A DNA stretch of 7,663 bases from Candidatus Latescibacterota bacterium (lineage in GTDB: Bacteria > JAAXHH01 > JACQVL01): positions 1 through 7,663 of the forward strand of contig JACQVL010000011.1 of assembly GCA_016209865.1 (NCBI GenBank), written 5' to 3'. Below, in pieces: positions 693-7,663 of this stretch (positions are counted from its first letter, which is position 1; the number at the start of each line of letters is the position of its first letter). The translations under genes were made by a program, and so were the position numbers. The notes beneath the pieces were generated by a model, which was not told the origin of the DNA, made no database searches, and worked only from the letters and a program-made list of their open reading frames with translations.

Positions 693-2333
693 CTACCGCC
701 CGATATACAGCTCACTCAGACGCGGCAGGATGGGGTAGCCGGACGGGCTCGTCTTGATGCCCCGGAGGAAGGGCTTGCGGAGTTCGAGGGAGACGTCGTG
801 GTAGATGAACAGACCGCCCACATCGTCGGCTAAGATTTTTTGCGCCTCTTCGTACATCCCCATCCGTCTGGCCGGGTCGAGCTCGCGGGCGGCCTGCTCG
901 ACGAACGTGTCGAACCGGGCGTTCTTCCACGGATGCCGGCCATGGCCGGGAGGCTGGGAGTGCCACAGCGAGCCGAGCATGCTGTGCGGGTCGGGATAGT
1001 CGGAGGTGAACGGGACGAGTCCCAGCGGGATGGTGTGCTGGTACATGTTGTCCATGAACGTCTTCTCTTCCTGGTTCCGGATCGTCACGTCGATGCCCAG
1101 GACGGATTTCCACATCGCCTGGATGGCTTCCGCCACCGCCCGGACGCTGGCGGCGGATTCCCGCACCCACAGCTCCTTCTTCGGAAACCCTTTCCCACCC
1201 GGATAGCCCGCCTCAGCGAACAGCTTCTTCGCTAACGCCGGGTTGTACCCTTGCAGCGCTTTGTACTTATCCCCCAGATAGCCCGGATAGTCGTGCGGGA
1301 GCATCATGTACGCGGGCGTCCCCGCGCCACGCAGGACGGTCTTGATGATCGCGTCCCGGTCGATCGCGTGAGCCAGGCCGCGGCGGACGCGCACGTCGGT
1401 GAACGGCGGCTTCGTCGTCTGGACGACGATGTACCGGGTGCGCGGGATGGGCACTTTGACGAGCTGGGCGCGCAGAACAGGGTCTTTTTCCACGCGGGCG
1501 AGCTCGATCGAATCGACGTTGTACAGGTCGATCTCGTTGTTCTCGTAAGCGAGCAGGCCGACTTTCGCCCCGACCGGCTGGAGCACCCAGATGATCTTCT
1601 CTAAGGAGCCCTTGTTCGGCCCGTTGTACATCGGGTCGAGGGTCAGGATGATCCGGTCGCCGGGAATCCACCGCTCTAACTTGTACGTCGCGTTGGAGAC
1701 GCACTTGCCCGTCTCCGTCCACCGCTGGCCGTACTTCTCGATCTGCCAGCGCGGGACCGGCGGCGTCCCGCCGTACGCGGCGATGTACGGGAAGTACGGA
1801 CACGGGTTGGCCGTCTCGACGACGAACGTCAGGTCATCCGCCGCGCGGATTTTCACGGTGTTCGGGTCTTTTGAGAGTCCAGTATTGAACTCCTTCGCCC
1901 CTTTGATGTCGTAGTAGAAGAACGCATACGGGTTGGCTTCTTTCGGGTCGAGCGCCCGGCGCCAGGAGTAGACGAAGTCGTGCGCGGTCGCCGGCCGGCC
2001 GTCGCTCCACTTCCCGCCCTTGCGCAGATGGAACGTCCAGACGCGGCCGTCCTTCGACCGGTCGTACCGGTCCGCCACGCCGGGGAGGATCTGGTTGGTC
2101 AACGGGTCGACGACGAGGAGCGGCTCGAAGATGAACCCGCCCGGCGACCCGTACATCCGGACGTTCACGTCGAGCGTCTGCGGTTCCGGGATGATGTACC
2201 GGAAGACCTGCTTCGACAGCGGCGCAGCGTCGGACGGGAGGCGTTTCCCGATGGCGTTGACGAGTTGAGCGGAGGTGGGAGGAATTGAGACGGCAAAAGA
2301 GGCGGCGAGCAAATAGAGACGAATCAGACGCAT
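693..2333 (-). CDS. Extracytoplasmic solute-binding protein, family 5 (peptide/OppA-like)
   Basis: This 546-residue protein has a Sec-type signal (MRLIRLYLLAASFAVSIPP, likely cut after TSA-Q at about residue 22). It has no lipobox cysteine, so it should be released to the periplasm or cell exterior rather than lipid-anchored. It has the SBP_bac_5 layout throughout: EPQTLD (50-55), LLVVDPLTNQILPGVADRY (72-90), FHLRKGGKWSDGRPATAHDFVYSWRRALDP (101-130), SNATYKLERW (213-222), RVRRGLAHAIDRDAI (315-329), and a C-terminal lobe with FTSDYPDPHSML (442-453). The family binds oligopeptides or other small ligands for ABC import. Two cysteines (C178, C211) could form a disulfide. The start is the ATG at 2333, chosen for the signal peptide and a GGGGAG ribosome site at 2345-2340. 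An in-frame extension upstream only overlaps the preceding gene. It follows the regulator by 11 bp, so both are in one operon. No permease or ATPase gene is present here, so a transport role is unproven; the ligand cannot be read from sequence. Confidence 0.93.
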   Translation of the reverse strand: MRLIRLYLLAASFAVSIPPTSAQLVNAIGKRLPSDAAPLSKQVFRYIIPEPQTLDVNVRMYGSPGGFIFEPLLVVDPLTNQILPGVADRYDRSKDGRVWTFHLRKGGKWSDGRPATAHDFVYSWRRALDPKEANPYAFFYYDIKGAKEFNTGLSKDPNTVKIRAADDLTFVVETANPCPYFPYIAAYGGTPPVPRWQIEKYGQRWTETGKCVSNATYKLERWIPGDRIILTLDPMYNGPNKGSLEKIIWVLQPVGAKVGLLAYENNEIDLYNVDSIELARVEKDPVLRAQLVKVPIPRTRYIVVQTTKPPFTDVRVRRGLAHAIDRDAIIKTVLRGAGTPAYMMLPHDYPGYLGDKYKALQGYNPALAKKLFAEAGYPGGKGFPKKELWVRESAASVRAVAEAIQAMWKSVLGIDVTIRNQEEKTFMDNMYQHTIPLGLVPFTSDYPDPHSMLGSLWHSQPPGHGRHPWKNARFDTFVEQAARELDPARRMGMYEEAQKILADDVGGLFIYHDVSLELRKPFLRGIKTSPSGYPILPRLSELYIGR

Positions 2334-2344
2334 GGGAGGCTCCC

Positions 2345-5125
2345 CTACTCCCGCCTGCGGGCCAGTGCCTCGATCCCGCCGACCATCCCGCTGCCGAAGA
2401 GCAGGCCCTCCAAGGCGCCCAGGGCGATCTGCGTCGTCCGGCCAAAATAGACCTCCCCGAAGAACGCGGCCAGCGGGTCCATCCTGATCTGGGAGTCGGC
2501 AAACGAGCGGGCCACGATCTCCAGGCTGCTGCTGAACAGGTTGCCGCCGATAATCGTCAGCACAATCCCGGCGCACATCGCCCCGACGGCCGCCCCGATG
2601 ATATGCCGCCAGGACCGGCCGCGAGTCATCAACCCCCCGGTCACCACCACCCCGAGCGAGATGCCCGCCCCGATGACCATCCCTTCAAACGCCCCGGTGA
2701 TCGTTGTGAGGTTCTGGCCGAAGAGGGTCTTGAGCGTATCCACCCCTAACAGTTTGATGCTTCCCCCGATGGCCGCCCCGCCCGCCGCCCCGCCGAGAAC
2801 CGCCCACCACCGGCTGTGCCGGTAGGTGATGTGTCCGACTGTCACCATGCCGAAACTGACCCCGCTCCCGCCGAGCGCCCCGATGAAGGTGCCCAGGCAG
2901 CTCAGCACGAAGATAAGGGAGGTCGCCTCGAACGTGCCGGTGTGCCGGGCGACCGTGAGGCCGCCGCCGAGCAGCAGCCCGCCCATCAGGCCGGAGGCCG
3001 CCCCGCCGAACATCCCGCCGACCCCCTGCCGGATGATGGCCGCCCCGTTCCGGCGCAGCCGCACCCACACCAGGCCGAGGACGACCAGGAGGCCGACCGG
3101 AAGCGGGAGGTGGGGCAGGCTGATCAGCCGTTTCTCGTAATCCCGGATGATAGCCAGGCTGATCGCACGGCGGATGCGCCCGACGTGTTCGCCGTTCGTC
3201 CCTTCGTCTAAGACGGTGTCGACCGCCGTCCCGAACCAGTCCGCTAAGGCGATACTGGCCGCTTTCCTGACGCCTAAATCGTCATCCCACAGCGACAGGT
3301 GGCGGAGGAGGACTCTGGTCTCGTCGTCGCGCACCAGCCGGCACGCTTCGACGGCACACAGTCGCACGTCCGGGTCGGGATGCCGGCTGGCCTCGGCGAT
3401 CAGTCGAGGGGCTGAGGGGGCGAGCGGGACGAGCCACTCCGGGACTGGCTGGGCCCGGTTCAACAGGCTCATCGTCAGCAGGTCGGCTTCTTCCCCGGTC
3501 AGGCCAAGTTGTTCCCCGAACGGGACGAGCAGGTCTAAGGTGTCCGCGTCGATGATGAGCGCATGGGCACGGTAGTTTTCCAGCGCCCGTTCGACCACCT
3601 CCCGGGCCCGCTTCAGCTCATACGCCTCAGTCGTGAGCCAGCGAGACACCTCGGAAATCAGACACTCATGGGCTAACTCCAGCCACCCGTCCCCGTCCTG
3701 GCTCCGCCTGCGGACGACACGAGCCGCGACGAGCTCCTCGATCAGCTCCGGGAGCGGGGCTGAGCCGTTCGTGACGCGTGAGCTGAGGCGACCCTCCAGG
3801 TCGGACGCGCGCAGGATGAGTCGCTGTCCGTCCGCCGAGATGAGCGCGACGAGAATCTCCTGGACGGCCGCCAGGTCGGTGGCGTTGAACCGGCGCAAGA
3901 CGCGCTCCAGGTACCCGGCGAGGATGTGTGAGGCCGTCCCGAGCCGGTCATACGCGGCCAGCGTCATCCCGCCCGCTGAATCTCGCGCGTCGTACAGGGT
4001 GTCGCAGACGATCTGCAGGTGAGGCGGATCGACCCCGTCCTGTTCACTCAGGTCATCCAGCAGGCGCTCAACGAGCGGCGTTTCGTAGTGGCACCCGACC
4101 GCACGGGCTGGCTCGATGATCGCGCGCGCCGCCTGTTCGCGGCTGAGGCGTCTGAGGCGGTACTCGTGGTGGAAGATGTCCGGGATGGCCGGCTTGAGCA
4201 GGCTCATCTCGGCGAGCAGGTCTTCGCGCAGGACGAACACGAACCGCACGGGCAGGGCGTCGTTCGAGACGCACGGCCCGATCGCCTCGATCAACCGGCG
4301 CTGGCTCTCCTCCGGGAGCAGGGTGAAGAATTCCTCAAACTGGTCGAGCAGGAAGATCACCGACCGGGCCGGGGACGGACTCGTCACCCGTTCCACCCAT
4401 TCCTTCAGGTCCGGAGGCGTCTGCTGAGCCAGCTCTCCCCCTGAGGAGTCCTCTTCCGACCCCTGACCCCTGACCCCTGACTCCTGCTCCAACGCATTCA
4501 TCATTTGATGGAGTGGGTCGATGAAGCTGCGGATGACGAACACGAAGTGACCGTCGGCGGTCAGGCGCGGCATCAGCCCGGCGCGCAGGATGGAGCTCTT
4601 GCCTACACCGGAGCGGCCGTGCAGGATGAGCGACCGGTGGGCCAGGATGTTCGAGCAGATCAGGTCGATCTCCGGCTCCCGCCCGAAGAAGAAGGGCACG
4701 TCCTGTTCAGTATAGTAATCGAGGAATTTATAGGGGCGGATGGCGGTGCTGCTCTGCGAGAAGTCGGAAGAAAGGGGAACGGTCTCCGCCGTGGACTGGG
4801 TCGCCTGGCCGATGAAGAGATACCCATGCTTGGGGATGGTTTTGATGTAGCGCGGGTTGGCGACGTCGTCGCCGAGTTGCTTGCGGATCGCTTTGATGCA
4901 CTGGGTGAGCGCCGCGTCTGTCACGAAGACGCTATCCCAGATCTCCTCGAAAATCCGCCGCTTCTCGACCAGTTGACCCCGGTGGCTGATGAGCAACACC
5001 AGGACGTCGAAATACTTCGAGTTCAGCGGAAGCAGCCGGTTCTTGTGCCAGAGTTGCCGGTTGCGGACGTCGAGAGAGAAGTCATCGAACCGATAGCCGG
5101 TGACCTGCGTCTTGGTTGCGCTCAT
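2345..5125 (-). CDS. Membrane-anchored wHTH transcriptional regulator with STAND-type NTPase (nSTAND1) and HEAT repeats
   Basis: This 926-residue multidomain protein starts with an OmpR/CadC-type winged helix (about 8-107; LNSKYFDVLVLLISHRGQLV, recognition-helix area ALTQCIKAIRKQLGD, and the wing RYIKTIPKHGYLF). An nSTAND1-like NTPase follows (about 130-500): PYKFLDYYTEQDVPFFFGRE entry motif, Walker A GRSGVGKSS (170-178), Walker B VIFLLDQFEEFF (256-267), an arginine-containing FVFVLRED strand (295-302) and the family-typical LAHECLI (484-490). HEAT-like helices (571-632; HPDPDVRLCAVEACRL, LGVRKAASIALADW) come next. The C-terminal 260 residues contain about six glycine-rich hydrophobic segments (roughly 675-690, 700-725, 735-760, 773-792, 808-832, 841-862), so the protein is a multipass membrane protein with its DNA-binding end in the cytoplasm. 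STAND ATPases act as ligand-triggered switches; this one probably gates DNA binding. The ATG at 5125 is the only in-frame start after the TGA upstream; its ribosome site is weak. A heptad repeat lies in frame inside it. The binding-protein gene follows at once. Confidence 0.88.
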   Translation of the reverse strand: MSATKTQVTGYRFDDFSLDVRNRQLWHKNRLLPLNSKYFDVLVLLISHRGQLVEKRRIFEEIWDSVFVTDAALTQCIKAIRKQLGDDVANPRYIKTIPKHGYLFIGQATQSTAETVPLSSDFSQSSTAIRPYKFLDYYTEQDVPFFFGREPEIDLICSNILAHRSLILHGRSGVGKSSILRAGLMPRLTADGHFVFVIRSFIDPLHQMMNALEQESGVRGQGSEEDSSGGELAQQTPPDLKEWVERVTSPSPARSVIFLLDQFEEFFTLLPEESQRRLIEAIGPCVSNDALPVRFVFVLREDLLAEMSLLKPAIPDIFHHEYRLRRLSREQAARAIIEPARAVGCHYETPLVERLLDDLSEQDGVDPPHLQIVCDTLYDARDSAGGMTLAAYDRLGTASHILAGYLERVLRRFNATDLAAVQEILVALISADGQRLILRASDLEGRLSSRVTNGSAPLPELIEELVAARVVRRRSQDGDGWLELAHECLISEVSRWLTTEAYELKRAREVVERALENYRAHALIIDADTLDLLVPFGEQLGLTGEEADLLTMSLLNRAQPVPEWLVPLAPSAPRLIAEASRHPDPDVRLCAVEACRLVRDDETRVLLRHLSLWDDDLGVRKAASIALADWFGTAVDTVLDEGTNGEHVGRIRRAISLAIIRDYEKRLISLPHLPLPVGLLVVLGLVWVRLRRNGAAIIRQGVGGMFGGAASGLMGGLLLGGGLTVARHTGTFEATSLIFVLSCLGTFIGALGGSGVSFGMVTVGHITYRHSRWWAVLGGAAGGAAIGGSIKLLGVDTLKTLFGQNLTTITGAFEGMVIGAGISLGVVVTGGLMTRGRSWRHIIGAAVGAMCAGIVLTIIGGNLFSSSLEIVARSFADSQIRMDPLAAFFGEVYFGRTTQIALGALEGLLFGSGMVGGIEALARRRE
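4458..4485. repeat. In-frame heptad tandem repeat inside the regulator gene
   Basis: Four 7-bp units stand head to tail: GACCCCT three times and GACTCCT once. Read on the coding (minus) strand they encode QESGVRGQGS (residues 214-223), in a low-complexity linker between Walker A and Walker B of the NTPase. Because 28 bp is not a multiple of three, neighbouring bases must compensate for the frame, and the ORF stays open. A gain or loss of one unit would shift the frame. Confidence 0.85.
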
Positions 5126-5131
5126 ACCGCG

Positions 5132-5171
5132 GATCGTCTCACGATCGGTGATTTCTCACGATTTTCTCACG
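5132..5171. promoter_or_regulatory. Direct repeats and palindrome before the regulator gene (candidate operator)
   Basis: On the minus strand the heptamer CGTGAGA occurs three times (5171-5165, 5160-5154, 5143-5137), with start-to-start spacings of 11 and 17 bp. The copy closest to the gene lies in a perfect palindrome, GATCGT-CTC-ACGATC (5132-5146), six bases before the regulator ATG. Direct repeats about 11 bp apart are the usual target of OmpR/PhoB-type winged helices, which is the DNA-binding domain this gene encodes. Autoregulation is therefore a reasonable inference, not shown. The palindrome might also fold in mRNA and hide the weak ribosome site. The whole gap to the upstream gene is 82 bp and no convincing promoter was seen in it. 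Confidence 0.5.
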
Positions 5172-5207
5172 GAAGGCTCATGTTTCTTGGGAAGCAGTCG
5201 AGTAAAT

Positions 5208-6272
5208 TTACCCTACATCCACCCGGCTCTGGTCGCCGATGATGAACCGGTGGGTGCGCGGCTTGCCGTTCGCCCGGATAATCTCCGACTCGTTCCCCAG
5301 GATGCTGCTCTCGATGCGGATGGCGACGTCGAGAATCTTCGCCCGCTGCATCACAATACTATACTCAACCTCGCTGTTCCGGATGTGACAGTCATCATGG
5401 ATGGAAGTGAACGGGCCGATGTAGCTGTTCTCGATGACCGTCCCCGCGCCGATGATGGCCGGGCCCCGGATGTTGCTGTTGATGATGCGCGCCCCCCGTT
5501 CGATGATCACCCGCCCGGCGATCGTGGAGTCCTCGTCCACCTCCCCCTCGACGCGGGGGGCGAGGTTCTCTAAGACGAGTCGGTTGGCGGCTAACAGGTC
5601 GGGGGATTTCCCGGTATCCATCCACCAGCCGGTGATTTCCGAGTAGGTCACCTTGTAGTCGTGGTCGAGCAGGTACTGGTGCGCGTCGGAGATCTCCAGT
5701 TCCCCTCGGGCACTCGGGACGAGCTGGTTGACCGCCTCGAAGATGCAGTTCGTGTAGAAATACAGGCCGGCGACCGCATACGGACTCTTGGGATGGGCGG
5801 GTTTCTCCTCGACGCGCACGATCCGGCCGTCCCGGAGTTCGGGGACGCCGAACTGCCTGGGGTTCTTCACGCGCGCGACGGTGAGGTGGCAGTGGGATTC
5901 GAGCCGCGTGAACTCGTCGATGAACCGTTGGATGCCGCCCACGACCATGTTATCGCCGAGGTAGAACACGAACGGGTCAGACCCGATGAACGGCTGGGCG
6001 ATCTTGACGACATGGGCGACCCCCAGCGGACCTTCCTGCTCGATGTACGCCACCCGCAGGCCCCACGCGCGGCCGTCCCCGACCGCGTTCGGGACCTCGG
6101 TGTCGCCCTGGTTGATGACGATCCCGACGTCGGTAATCCCTGCATCACGGATAGCTTCGATCGCGTAGAAGAGGATGGGTTTATTGGCGACCGGGATCAA
6201 CTGTTTGTTCTGCGTATGGGTGATCGGCCGGAGCCGTGTCCCACGGCCGCCGCTGGCGATTAAAGCTTTCAT
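5208..6272 (-). CDS. Glucose-1-phosphate thymidylyltransferase, long form (RmlA-long/RfbA-like)
   Basis: This 354-residue enzyme is predicted to make dTDP-glucose (or a related NDP-sugar) from dTTP and glucose-1-phosphate in the cytosol, the first step toward dTDP-deoxysugars such as rhamnose. The N-terminal nucleotidyltransferase domain (1-240) has the signature SGGRGTRLRPITHT (7-20), catalytic K23 with QLIPVANKP (24-32), EGPLGVAH (80-87), metal-binding D107 in YLGDN, EEKP (155-158) and WWMDTGK (216-222) with the second acidic residue D219. From about 245 to the end, hexapeptide-type repeats (TIAGRVIIERGARIINSNIRG and following) predict a left-handed beta-helix. This makes it the long form rather than the short RmlA of about 290 residues, and the length matches that family. 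The ATG at 6272 has GGAG (6283-6280) seven bases upstream. Long-form enzymes vary in substrate, so the exact sugar and base are uncertain. No rmlB, rmlC, rmlD or glycosyltransferase gene accompanies it here. It is the first gene of the minus-strand run. Confidence 0.92.
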   Translation of the reverse strand: MKALIASGGRGTRLRPITHTQNKQLIPVANKPILFYAIEAIRDAGITDVGIVINQGDTEVPNAVGDGRAWGLRVAYIEQEGPLGVAHVVKIAQPFIGSDPFVFYLGDNMVVGGIQRFIDEFTRLESHCHLTVARVKNPRQFGVPELRDGRIVRVEEKPAHPKSPYAVAGLYFYTNCIFEAVNQLVPSARGELEISDAHQYLLDHDYKVTYSEITGWWMDTGKSPDLLAANRLVLENLAPRVEGEVDEDSTIAGRVIIERGARIINSNIRGPAIIGAGTVIENSYIGPFTSIHDDCHIRNSEVEYSIVMQRAKILDVAIRIESSILGNESEIIRANGKPRTHRFIIGDQSRVDVG

Positions 6273-6309: not shown

Positions 6310-6423
6310 AAGTGACGAGTGACCAGTGACGAGTAAAGGCAAGAGAAAATAGCGATGTCATTCCCGCGAAAGCGGGAATCCATTTTGTTTTACTTGTCAC
6401 TGGTCACTCGTCACTTGTCACTG
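6310..6423. repeat. Heptad-repeat inverted repeat with nested hairpin (composite intergenic element)
   Basis: The left arm (6310-6337) consists of AGTGACN heptads; the right arm (6389-6416) is its reverse complement with a single difference (G6331 against T6395, a G-U pair in RNA). The right side continues with a further heptad to 6423, giving four GTCACTN units (6396-6423), followed by a run of seven T. Between the arms lies a separate perfect hairpin at 6360-6379. Folded as RNA or cruciform it gives a 28-bp outer stem around a GAAA-capped inner stem. It lies in the leader of the thymidylyltransferase transcript if the minus-strand promoter at 6442-6470 is used. No ORF is associated with it. 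Confidence 0.9.
6360..6379. repeat. ATTCCCGC hairpin with GAAA loop (dRS3/REP-like)
   Basis: ATTCCCGC, GAAA and GCGGGAAT form a perfect 8-bp stem with a GNRA-type tetraloop, embedded in GTC...CCA context. The pattern ATTCCC-N8-GGGAAT is that of the dRS3 repeats known from Neisseria, and similar hairpins are scattered between genes in many bacteria. The identity of this copy as a member of a repeat family in its own genome is inferred from that resemblance. Confidence 0.75.
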
Positions 6424-6441: not shown

Positions 6442-6470
6442 AATGTAACACGATGACGCCGGGTTGTAAA
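6442..6470 (-). promoter_or_regulatory. Probable promoter for the thymidylyltransferase operon
   Basis: On the minus strand TTTACA (6470-6465) and TACATT (6447-6442) are 17 bp apart, and TGT directly before the -10 box gives an extended -10 (TGn). Transcription would start near 6435, leaving a leader of about 160 nt that includes the whole heptad inverted repeat. It stands back to back with the dehydrogenase promoter, with only 7 bp between the two -35 boxes, so binding of polymerase or a regulator could affect both. The -10 box matches only four of six bases, hence moderate confidence. Confidence 0.5.
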
Positions 6471-6477
6471 GAACAGT

Positions 6478-6506
6478 TTGACAAAATGTGGCGGTTTGTG
6501 TATAAT
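6478..6506 (+). promoter_or_regulatory. Perfect-consensus sigma-70 promoter of the dehydrogenase gene
   Basis: TTGACA (6478-6483) and TATAAT (6501-6506) are both exact consensus hexamers with the optimal 17-bp spacer. Start of transcription is expected near 6513, giving a leader of about 85 nt. Such a strong core promoter usually needs repression or gives high constitutive expression; a perfect dyad begins four bases after the -10 box. Confidence 0.85.
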
Positions 6507-6509
6507 GGG

Positions 6510-6545
6510 CGGCATTGTCAACGGGATCCCTTGCTGACAATGCCG
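6510..6545. promoter_or_regulatory. 11-bp perfect dyad at the transcription start (operator or 5' stem-loop)
   Basis: CGGCATTGTCA (6510-6520) is followed by a 14-base loop and its exact reverse complement TGACAATGCCG (6535-6545). The loop itself contains the palindrome GGGATCCC (6523-6530). The dyad covers the predicted start site of the dehydrogenase mRNA. It could be a repressor operator, or a 5'-terminal stem-loop that protects the mRNA. It is not a terminator, because no T-run follows and it lies before the gene. Confidence 0.7.
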
Positions 6546-6598: not shown

Positions 6599-7642
6599 GT
6601 GCCCGAACAGATGACGGCCGCCGTGTTGTACGGACAACACGATGTTCGAATTGAACAGATTGACATCCCTCAGATCGGTCCTCACGATGTCTTGCTCCGG
6701 ATCAAAGTCGCGCTCACCTGCGGGACGGACGTGAAGGTGTTCCAGCGCGGATACCACGCCAAGATGATCGTCCCGCCCGCCATCTTCGGCCATGAAGTGG
6801 CGGGCGAGGTCGAGGCAGTCGGCCGTCAGGTTCGCGGGTTTGAACCCGGCATGCGAGTCGTCTCCGCCAACTCCGCCCCGTGCGGCACCTGCTTCTACTG
6901 TCAGCGCCATCAGGAAAACCTGTGTGAGAACCTGTTGTTCATCAATGGCGCGTACGCCGAGTTTCTCCGCATCCCCGGCCAGGTCGTCGCCCGGAACCTC
7001 CTGTCCATCCCCGACCATGTGTCCTTCCGGGATGCGGCGCTCGTCGAGCCGTTAGCCTGCGTGCTGCACGGGCTCGAAGAGACCGGGGTGCAGCGGACGG
7101 ATACGGTCGCCGTCGTCGGGACGGGACCGATCGGGCTGATGTTCATCCGGATGGCGAAGCTGCGAGGGGCGACCGTCATCGCGGTCGGGAAGCGGGCCGA
7201 GCGCCTCAAAGCCAGCCGGCGCATGGGCGCGGATGAGGTCATCGACGCGGCGGCCGTCCCGGATGTCGTGGCGGCCGTCCGGGCGGCCACGGACGAGGGA
7301 CGGGGCGCGGACCGGGTGATCGAGGCGGTCGGCCGGCCGCCGGTCTGGGAGCAGGCGATCCAGATGGCCCGGCCGGGGGGAACGGTGAACCTGTTCGGCG
7401 GATGCCCGCCGCAGACGAACATTCAGGTGGATGCCGGACTCCTCCATTACTCCGAGCTGACGATCAAAGGCACGTTCCATCATACCCCGCGCTTCATCAA
7501 GCTGGCCCTCCGGCTGATCGCGGACGGGGTCATTCAATCAGACGCCCTCATCACCGGGGAAGCCCCGCTGAGCCAGCTCCCGCAAATCCTGGAGCGGATG
7601 CTGGGCAAGAACGGGGTGATGAAGACGGCGATCGTGCCGTAG
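6599..7642 (+). CDS. Zinc-dependent medium-chain dehydrogenase (iditol/threonine dehydrogenase-like)
   Basis: This 347-residue enzyme is predicted to oxidise a polyol or secondary alcohol reversibly with NAD(P), in the cytosol. The GroES-like catalytic domain has the zinc ligands C41 (CGTD), H65-E66 (GHEVAGEVEAVG) and E150 (VEPLACVLHG). The structural zinc lobe is complete (C95, C98, C101, C109). The Rossmann fold has GTGPIG (174-179). The end of the second strand reads VIAVGKRAERL (193-203), where NAD-dependent relatives carry an acidic residue; G197-K198-R199 instead suggests NADP preference. The C-terminal part (FGGCPP, HYSELTIKGTFHHTP, VIQSDALIT) resembles iditol-2-dehydrogenase-like proteins. 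The start is taken as GTG 6599 (MPEQMTAAVLY) because of GGAG at 6587-6590. ATG 6611 would begin exactly where many relatives do and cannot be excluded. It is a single-gene unit, divergent from the thymidylyltransferase operon, with heptad repeats on both sides. Substrate is not determined by sequence. Confidence 0.92.
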   Translation: MPEQMTAAVLYGQHDVRIEQIDIPQIGPHDVLLRIKVALTCGTDVKVFQRGYHAKMIVPPAIFGHEVAGEVEAVGRQVRGFEPGMRVVSANSAPCGTCFYCQRHQENLCENLLFINGAYAEFLRIPGQVVARNLLSIPDHVSFRDAALVEPLACVLHGLEETGVQRTDTVAVVGTGPIGLMFIRMAKLRGATVIAVGKRAERLKASRRMGADEVIDAAAVPDVVAAVRAATDEGRGADRVIEAVGRPPVWEQAIQMARPGGTVNLFGGCPPQTNIQVDAGLLHYSELTIKGTFHHTPRFIKLALRLIADGVIQSDALITGEAPLSQLPQILERMLGKNGVMKTAIVP

Positions 7643-7649
7643 GGCAGAG

Positions 7650-7663
7650 CAGTGACGAGTGAC
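7650..7663. repeat. Start of another heptad-repeat tract (cut by window end)
   Basis: Seven bases after the dehydrogenase stop codon CAGTGACGAGTGAC begins, the same AGTGACN heptad and the same orientation as the left arm at 6310-6337. The tract runs off the window, so it cannot be said whether it also forms an inverted repeat and serves as transcription terminator. Confidence 0.75.

Follow-up and report, generated by a model that had tools for sequence, protein, structure and literature searches.

The protein encoded at the centre of the window is probably a membrane-embedded activator of the STAND type, which couples a MalT-like switch to a CadC-like DNA-binding head and governs envelope and isoprenoid genes. 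The window, i.e. the whole stretch of DNA analysed, is a complete contig of 7,663 bases from a draft genome (G000; 3.75 Mb, 83% complete). The reading frame at 2345-5125 on its minus strand is intact, begins with ATG and encodes 926 aa. The parts of the protein are as follows.

2345..5125, minus strand: regulator gene, 926 aa; winged helix, nSTAND1, HEAT and six-helix membrane tail (ORF and Pfam)
4802..5098, minus strand: OmpR/CadC-type winged helix, residues 10-108 (Trans_reg_C; solved-structure matches)
3572..4735, minus strand: nSTAND1 NTPase module, residues 131-518 (Pfam, E 1.1e-56)
4592..4618, minus strand: Walker A GRSGVGKSS, residues 170-178 (conservation)
4328..4360, minus strand: Walker B region, residues 256-266, core LLDQFEE (conservation)
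3155..3409, minus strand: HEAT repeats, residues 573-657 (HEAT_2, Pfam)
3056..3124, minus strand: short hydrophobic helix ahead of the hairpins, residues 668-690 (hydropathy; AlphaFold2 helix at 675-692)
2357..3046, minus strand: six predicted membrane helices in three glycine-rich hairpins, residues 694-923 (hydropathy, positive-inside rule, AlphaFold2)

An earlier note on this DNA had read the N-terminus as an intact winged helix of the OmpR/CadC type, and Pfam bears this out. Trans_reg_C matches residues 32-104 (E 1.2e-16, 61 bits) above its curated cut-off, and the best matches of the head among solved structures are OmpR-family winged helices, including RstA, CadC and ToxR. The top NCBIfam match of the regulator is CadC, yet it falls below the CadC equivalog cut-off. 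The note had also placed an nSTAND1-like module with Walker A and Walker B motifs at residues 130-500, followed by HEAT-like helices. The profile search assigned residues 131-518 to nSTAND1 (193.5 bits against a cut-off of 27.1) and to no non-NTPase family, and the repeat arm adjoining the NTPase scores 28.6 bits with HEAT_2, against a cut-off of 27.7. Among 15 diverse homologues the Walker A residues G170-S178 are invariant with the exception of R171, which is nearly so, and D261, Q262, F263 and E264 of Walker B are invariant. A Pfam search of the regulator found no BTAD domain after the winged helix at E values up to 1. A full-length AlphaFold2 model was set aside (pLDDT 57).

The topology of the tail, predicted from hydropathy, charge bias, conservation and an AlphaFold2 model, agrees with the same note's proposal of about six glycine-rich membrane segments beyond residue 670. 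Family-mean hydropathy picks out seven hydrophobic segments, at 670, 708, 738, 775, 815, 842 and 900. The charges of the loops between the last six alternate (+2.2, -0.5, +2.5, -1.5, +2.1, -0.8), consistent with six crossings (708-918) with the N- and C-termini both in the cytosol. Segment 670-688 is flanked by positive charge on both sides and probably lies at the interface instead of crossing. GxxxG motifs number 18 in the tail against 9.1 +/- 2.5 in shuffles, and hairpin 2 resembles hairpin 3 (hhalign probability 93), with hairpin 1 weakly related (33-38). The AlphaFold2 tail model, built on 23 sequences (pLDDT 75, pTM 0.77), has six long helices and a few short ones. In the topology predicted from hydropathy and charge the largest extracytoplasmic loop is of about 39 residues (861-899), and by this loop analysis a C-terminal periplasmic sensor domain of the CadC/ToxR type is absent. 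On these predictions we infer that the regulator is embedded in the membrane through its tail.

Residues 665-926 match no Pfam family and gave nothing significant against PDB sequences. The best VIA structural match of the tail is the ADP/ATP carrier 6gci, at a Z of 12.2 that is below the safe line for helical bundles (205 residues aligned, rmsd 4.9), followed by Tim17-type subunits at a Z of about 8. Foldseek gave the carrier an E of 1.7 and returned nothing for the tail model at E <= 0.001, and the mitochondrial carrier (SLC25) signature Px[DE]xx[KR] is absent from all 23 tails. The modelled tail may thus be described as having a carrier-like arrangement only, as a match between helical bundles proves no SLC25 fold.

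Full-length orthologues were found in all 15 other genomes of the window's order; their identity is 54-62% across the whole alignment and reaches 64% in local matches. Calditrichaceae, one KSB1 MAG and one MAG labelled Acidobacteria also encode full-length members. The Calditrichota and KSB1 members are 43-55% identical to the window protein, and carriers make up 9 of 40 Calditrichota genomes, including a complete genome of 4.98 Mb (G359). A first scan of genome contigs, using a single protein as query, gave no match. The earlier note had seen in this protein a joining of the CadC-like membrane principle with that of the STAND NTPases; proteins with the whole domain order are present in all 15 order genomes, in Calditrichota and in KSB1. 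The architecture is complete and has been kept in different phyla, which speaks against a fusion by chance, and the proposal is supported.

Upstream of the gene, tandem 11-bp direct repeats of the form [C/T][A/G]TGAG-N5 (core RTGAG) were found in every lineage examined, with three or four units in most lineages and only two at two Calditrichota loci. In the window they are as follows.

5150..5182, minus strand: candidate operator, three 11-bp direct repeats CATGAGCCTTC CGTGAGAAAAT CGTGAGAAATC

When the matrix was built leaving one lineage out, the array ranked first in its locus on both strands in 8/8 lineages, and 1 Mb of shuffled sequence held 0 equal scores for each of the eight. A model for scanning genomes, which uses sequence only and was trained on 14 regulator operators, matches 15 of the 16 carrier genomes of the order. 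In the sixteenth (G004) there is a partial match at the very end of a contig, which breaks inside the operator. Outside the order, one of 99 genomes gave a match, and a weak one (E 0.008). In a pattern scan a reversed control pattern gave far fewer matches. The tandem half-sites lie about one helical turn apart, as in DNA binding of the OmpR/PhoB type; the sites of PhoP consist of 7-bp direct repeats separated by 4 bp (PMC4832192). The operator would be a plausible site for the winged head, which we infer to bind it. The view of the earlier note that the protein is a DNA-binding transcription factor is backed by this operator, which accompanies the gene and is found again at other promoters. 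The repeats could instead serve another winged-helix regulator, with the STAND protein acting indirectly or not at all, given that G000 encodes other OmpR-type regulators. Such an arrangement seems to us highly improbable, because the array tracks the gene across phyla, is missing from 98 of the 99 genomes outside the order, and always adjoins the regulator gene whatever the neighbour.

Two further features of the window bear on how the array might act.

5203..5208, plus strand: degenerate -10 element TAAATT, on the divergent side of the array at 20 bp, the same spacing as the TATAAT of relatives
5208..6272, minus strand: rmlA_long glucose-1-phosphate thymidylyltransferase (TIGR01208, 444 bits)

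On the side of the divergent gene, a TATAAT-like element lies at a distance of 19-21 bp from the array at all tabulated sites of the order except the partial array of G012, which is anchored differently and does not fit the spacing. Within the order this divergent -10 lies on the side away from the repeat direction. The match to TATAAT is 6/6 at the regulator array of seven of the nine tabulated order genomes (G002, G005, G007, G008, G010, G011 and G013) and at a TonB receptor site of G010. It is 5/6 in G001 and L035 and at the G007 TonB, DoxX and two Cu/Zn sites, and 4/6 in the window and at the tsf site; ties between equal matches were resolved toward 20 bp, and the 4/6 cases count for little. 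The window's own element also points antisense into rmlA. With a -10 at this distance the array covers the -35 position, an arrangement seen at PhoB promoters, which points to the geometry of an activator. In Calditrichota and KSB1 the repeats are present with no clear -10 at 20 bp, which counts against the activator reading there. This would suit a protein that works mainly as a repressor or autorepressor through the same operator, its membrane part releasing the DNA on a signal. So would the position of the array: in every lineage it precedes the regulator's own start by 35-166 bp, and this holds for the window too, where there is no divergent target. However, with nearly all order sites showing the activator spacing and the array covering the -35, we judge repression to be unlikely as the main mode of action.

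The genes beside the array suggest what an activator would control. Two more genes of the window enter here.

6599..7642, plus strand: zinc alcohol-dehydrogenase-like gene, the divergent partner in G001, G011 and G013
693..2333, minus strand: OppA-type substrate-binding protein (SBP_bac_5, E 3.8e-84), which begins 11 bp downstream of the regulator

In the f3 genomes a PF00494 pair adjoins the regulator, and the divergent operon holds hpnC, hpnD and hpnE, all above NCBIfam cut-offs. These genes are preceded by a DHBP synthase in g3 and by an alcohol dehydrogenase in G011 and G013. The alcohol dehydrogenase is directly divergent from the regulator in G001 and G013 and, judged by eye from the upstream sequence, in G011. 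At 6/6 loci from Calditrichota, KSB1 and L035 the divergent gene is a cis-prenyltransferase (uppS-like). G359 has a second uppS elsewhere in its genome, and the divergent copy in Calditrichota is probably a dedicated enzyme and a target of the regulator. The window locus has no isoprenoid divergent partner; its alcohol dehydrogenase is still divergent with rmlA between, apparently an insertion that parted the regulator from what was its divergent neighbour. The hpnC/hpnD pair was not found in the 83%-complete G000. The isoprenoid link is hence strong for the regulator family and only indirect for the window copy. Hopanoids were rejected as the product, as a squalene-hopene cyclase match turned up in just two of the 11 genomes searched (G001, and a partial match in G010), which makes squalene or C30 carotenoids more likely. 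Coupling of the regulator to the downstream OppA gene was ruled out, this neighbour not being conserved beside relatives.

The operator model also found sites outside its training set, among them a second array in G000.

L225:10375-10412 (= C223:24374-24411): operator-like array between rpsB and tsf (E 1.1e-4)

This array lies upstream of an operon that includes uppS and a dxr-like gene. Other arrays precede a TonB-dependent receptor in eight genomes (G002, G003, G005, G007, G008, G009, G010 and G015; E 5e-8 to 0.035) and a DoxX gene in G010 (E 1e-8). In G002, G005, G010 and G012 an array with weak scores (E 0.003-0.2) is flanked by a circularly permuted ATP-grasp operon on one side and a Cu/Zn-efflux/HflK/SPFH operon on the other. 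The likely targets, as predicted from these sites, are membrane-lipid and envelope genes.

The closest nSTAND1 relatives outside the family bear SIR2_2 or cyclase heads, and no ORF among the relatives L044-L114 has the winged head of this family. One of them, the Chloroflexota protein L044, shares the HEAT arm and the glycine-rich membrane tail with the regulator (hhalign probability 81). STAND chassis thus appear to swap effectors, which is known for the class. With ThsA/SIR2-type heads on the same nSTAND1-HEAT chassis, and a similar tail in one case, the regulator might be a defence-type STAND sensor whose DNA-binding effector alters transcription when invasion or membrane damage is detected. 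We find this quite improbable: the PADLOC defence models, the one such library searched, gave no match to the regulator, the protein is conserved order-wide at 54-64%, the predicted targets are housekeeping envelope genes, and no defence genes occur among the neighbours examined.

The preferred reading, an activator acting from the membrane, draws on features known from separate systems. The regulator resembles CadC and ToxR in its N-terminal OmpR-type winged helix, predicted membrane anchoring and one-component design, but it interposes an NTPase and a HEAT arm between its head and the membrane, has six hairpin helices where they have one pass, and lacks a large periplasmic domain. It resembles MalT as a STAND NTPase switching a transcription factor, for which several tandem DNA sites are expected of the oligomer. 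MalT, however, is a soluble protein whose LuxR-type head is C-terminal and whose sensor binds an inducer; the regulator has its winged head at the N-terminus, and its sensor side finishes in the membrane. In AfsR and the SARP-STAND regulators, too, a DNA-binding winged helix at the N-terminus leads into a STAND NTPase; the regulator differs in lacking BTAD, in its nSTAND1 family NTPase, in HEAT instead of TPR repeats and in its membrane tail. L044 has the same chassis, its tail aligning by profile, but its N-terminal effector is SIR2/ThsA-like and not a winged helix. The operator is like PhoB/PhoP-type sites in its 11-bp direct repeats over the -35 region and unlike them in having three or four units with the core RTGAG. 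Unlike PhoB and PhoP, the regulator is not phosphorylated, because it has no receiver domain. In the literature library searched we found no paper on the combination of winged helix, STAND and membrane domains, and the main text of a survey of transmembrane regulators mentions none that contain an NTPase.

An ATP-driven oligomerisation switch acting from the membrane is suggested by the conserved motifs and the predicted helices, and MalT offers a known example of a STAND activator switched by ATP (PMC4381067). At rest the NTPase would be ADP-bound and closed, and the tail, together with the HEAT arm, may sense a lipid-soluble ligand or the condition of the membrane. Binding of ATP would open the NTPase and let protomers assemble at the membrane, so that three or four winged heads could occupy the three or four repeats and bring RNA polymerase to the TATAAT at a distance of 20 bp, replacing a -35 element in the manner of PhoB. 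Targets would comprise squalene synthesis (hpnCDE), the TonB receptor, Cu/Zn efflux with the HflK-type SPFH proteins, DoxX and, probably, the dedicated cis-prenyltransferase of Calditrichota; the regulator gene would control itself through the same array. More tentatively, and with the odds against it, the glycine-rich three-hairpin tail may sense polyisoprenoids or membrane order. If so, the regulator would be a one-piece bacterial counterpart of sterol-sensing control, in which ATP-driven assembly on tandem sites would switch on squalene and cis-prenyl synthesis along with SPFH microdomain proteins.

One conserved protein would unite a membrane-anchored transcription factor and an inflammasome-like ATP switch, which are usually apart, and its readable DNA targets make it a compact system for studying how a membrane-bound STAND assembles on DNA. 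The squalene and cis-prenyl genes and the HflK-type microdomain proteins suggest a dedicated circuit of membrane-lipid control in little-studied phyla, and the Calditrichota carrier G359, which is likely cultivated, would allow tests. The operator, the regulon and the isoprenoid gene context are new beyond the earlier note.

Several minor observations were made alongside. In Chloroflexota, L044:9266-12361 and L057:3066-5975 have a SIR2/ThsA-like head on an nSTAND1-HEAT chassis, backed in L044 by a glycine-rich multipass membrane tail; both are possible membrane-bound defence STANDs. The Deltaproteobacterium MAG CSMAG_234 (L045-L051, L087) encodes at least eight large related nSTAND1 proteins, of which the one scanned, L045, reads cyclase-SIR2-nSTAND1-TPR. 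G006:C66:64746-70554 holds three successive winged-head matches, in ORFs about 800 aa long that may be other regulators arranged in tandem. Within the window, the alcohol dehydrogenase has a promoter at 6463-6510 (TTGACA-N17-TATAAT) preceded by TGTAAAGAACAG. G001 (L006) has the identical 19-bp TGTAAAGAACAGTTTGACA, which hints that there is a second conserved operator. At 6310-6420 and 7640-7663 there are interspersed repeats of the GTGACGAGTGACCAGTGACGAG type and a ATTCCCGCGAAAGCGGGAATCC palindrome; the contig ends inside a GTGACGAGTGACCAGTGACGAG-type repeat, which may explain the assembly break. At the opposite edge, inspection by eye revealed a truncated Ser/Thr kinase-like start (3-401) and, beside it, a short HicB-like ORF (about 413-565).
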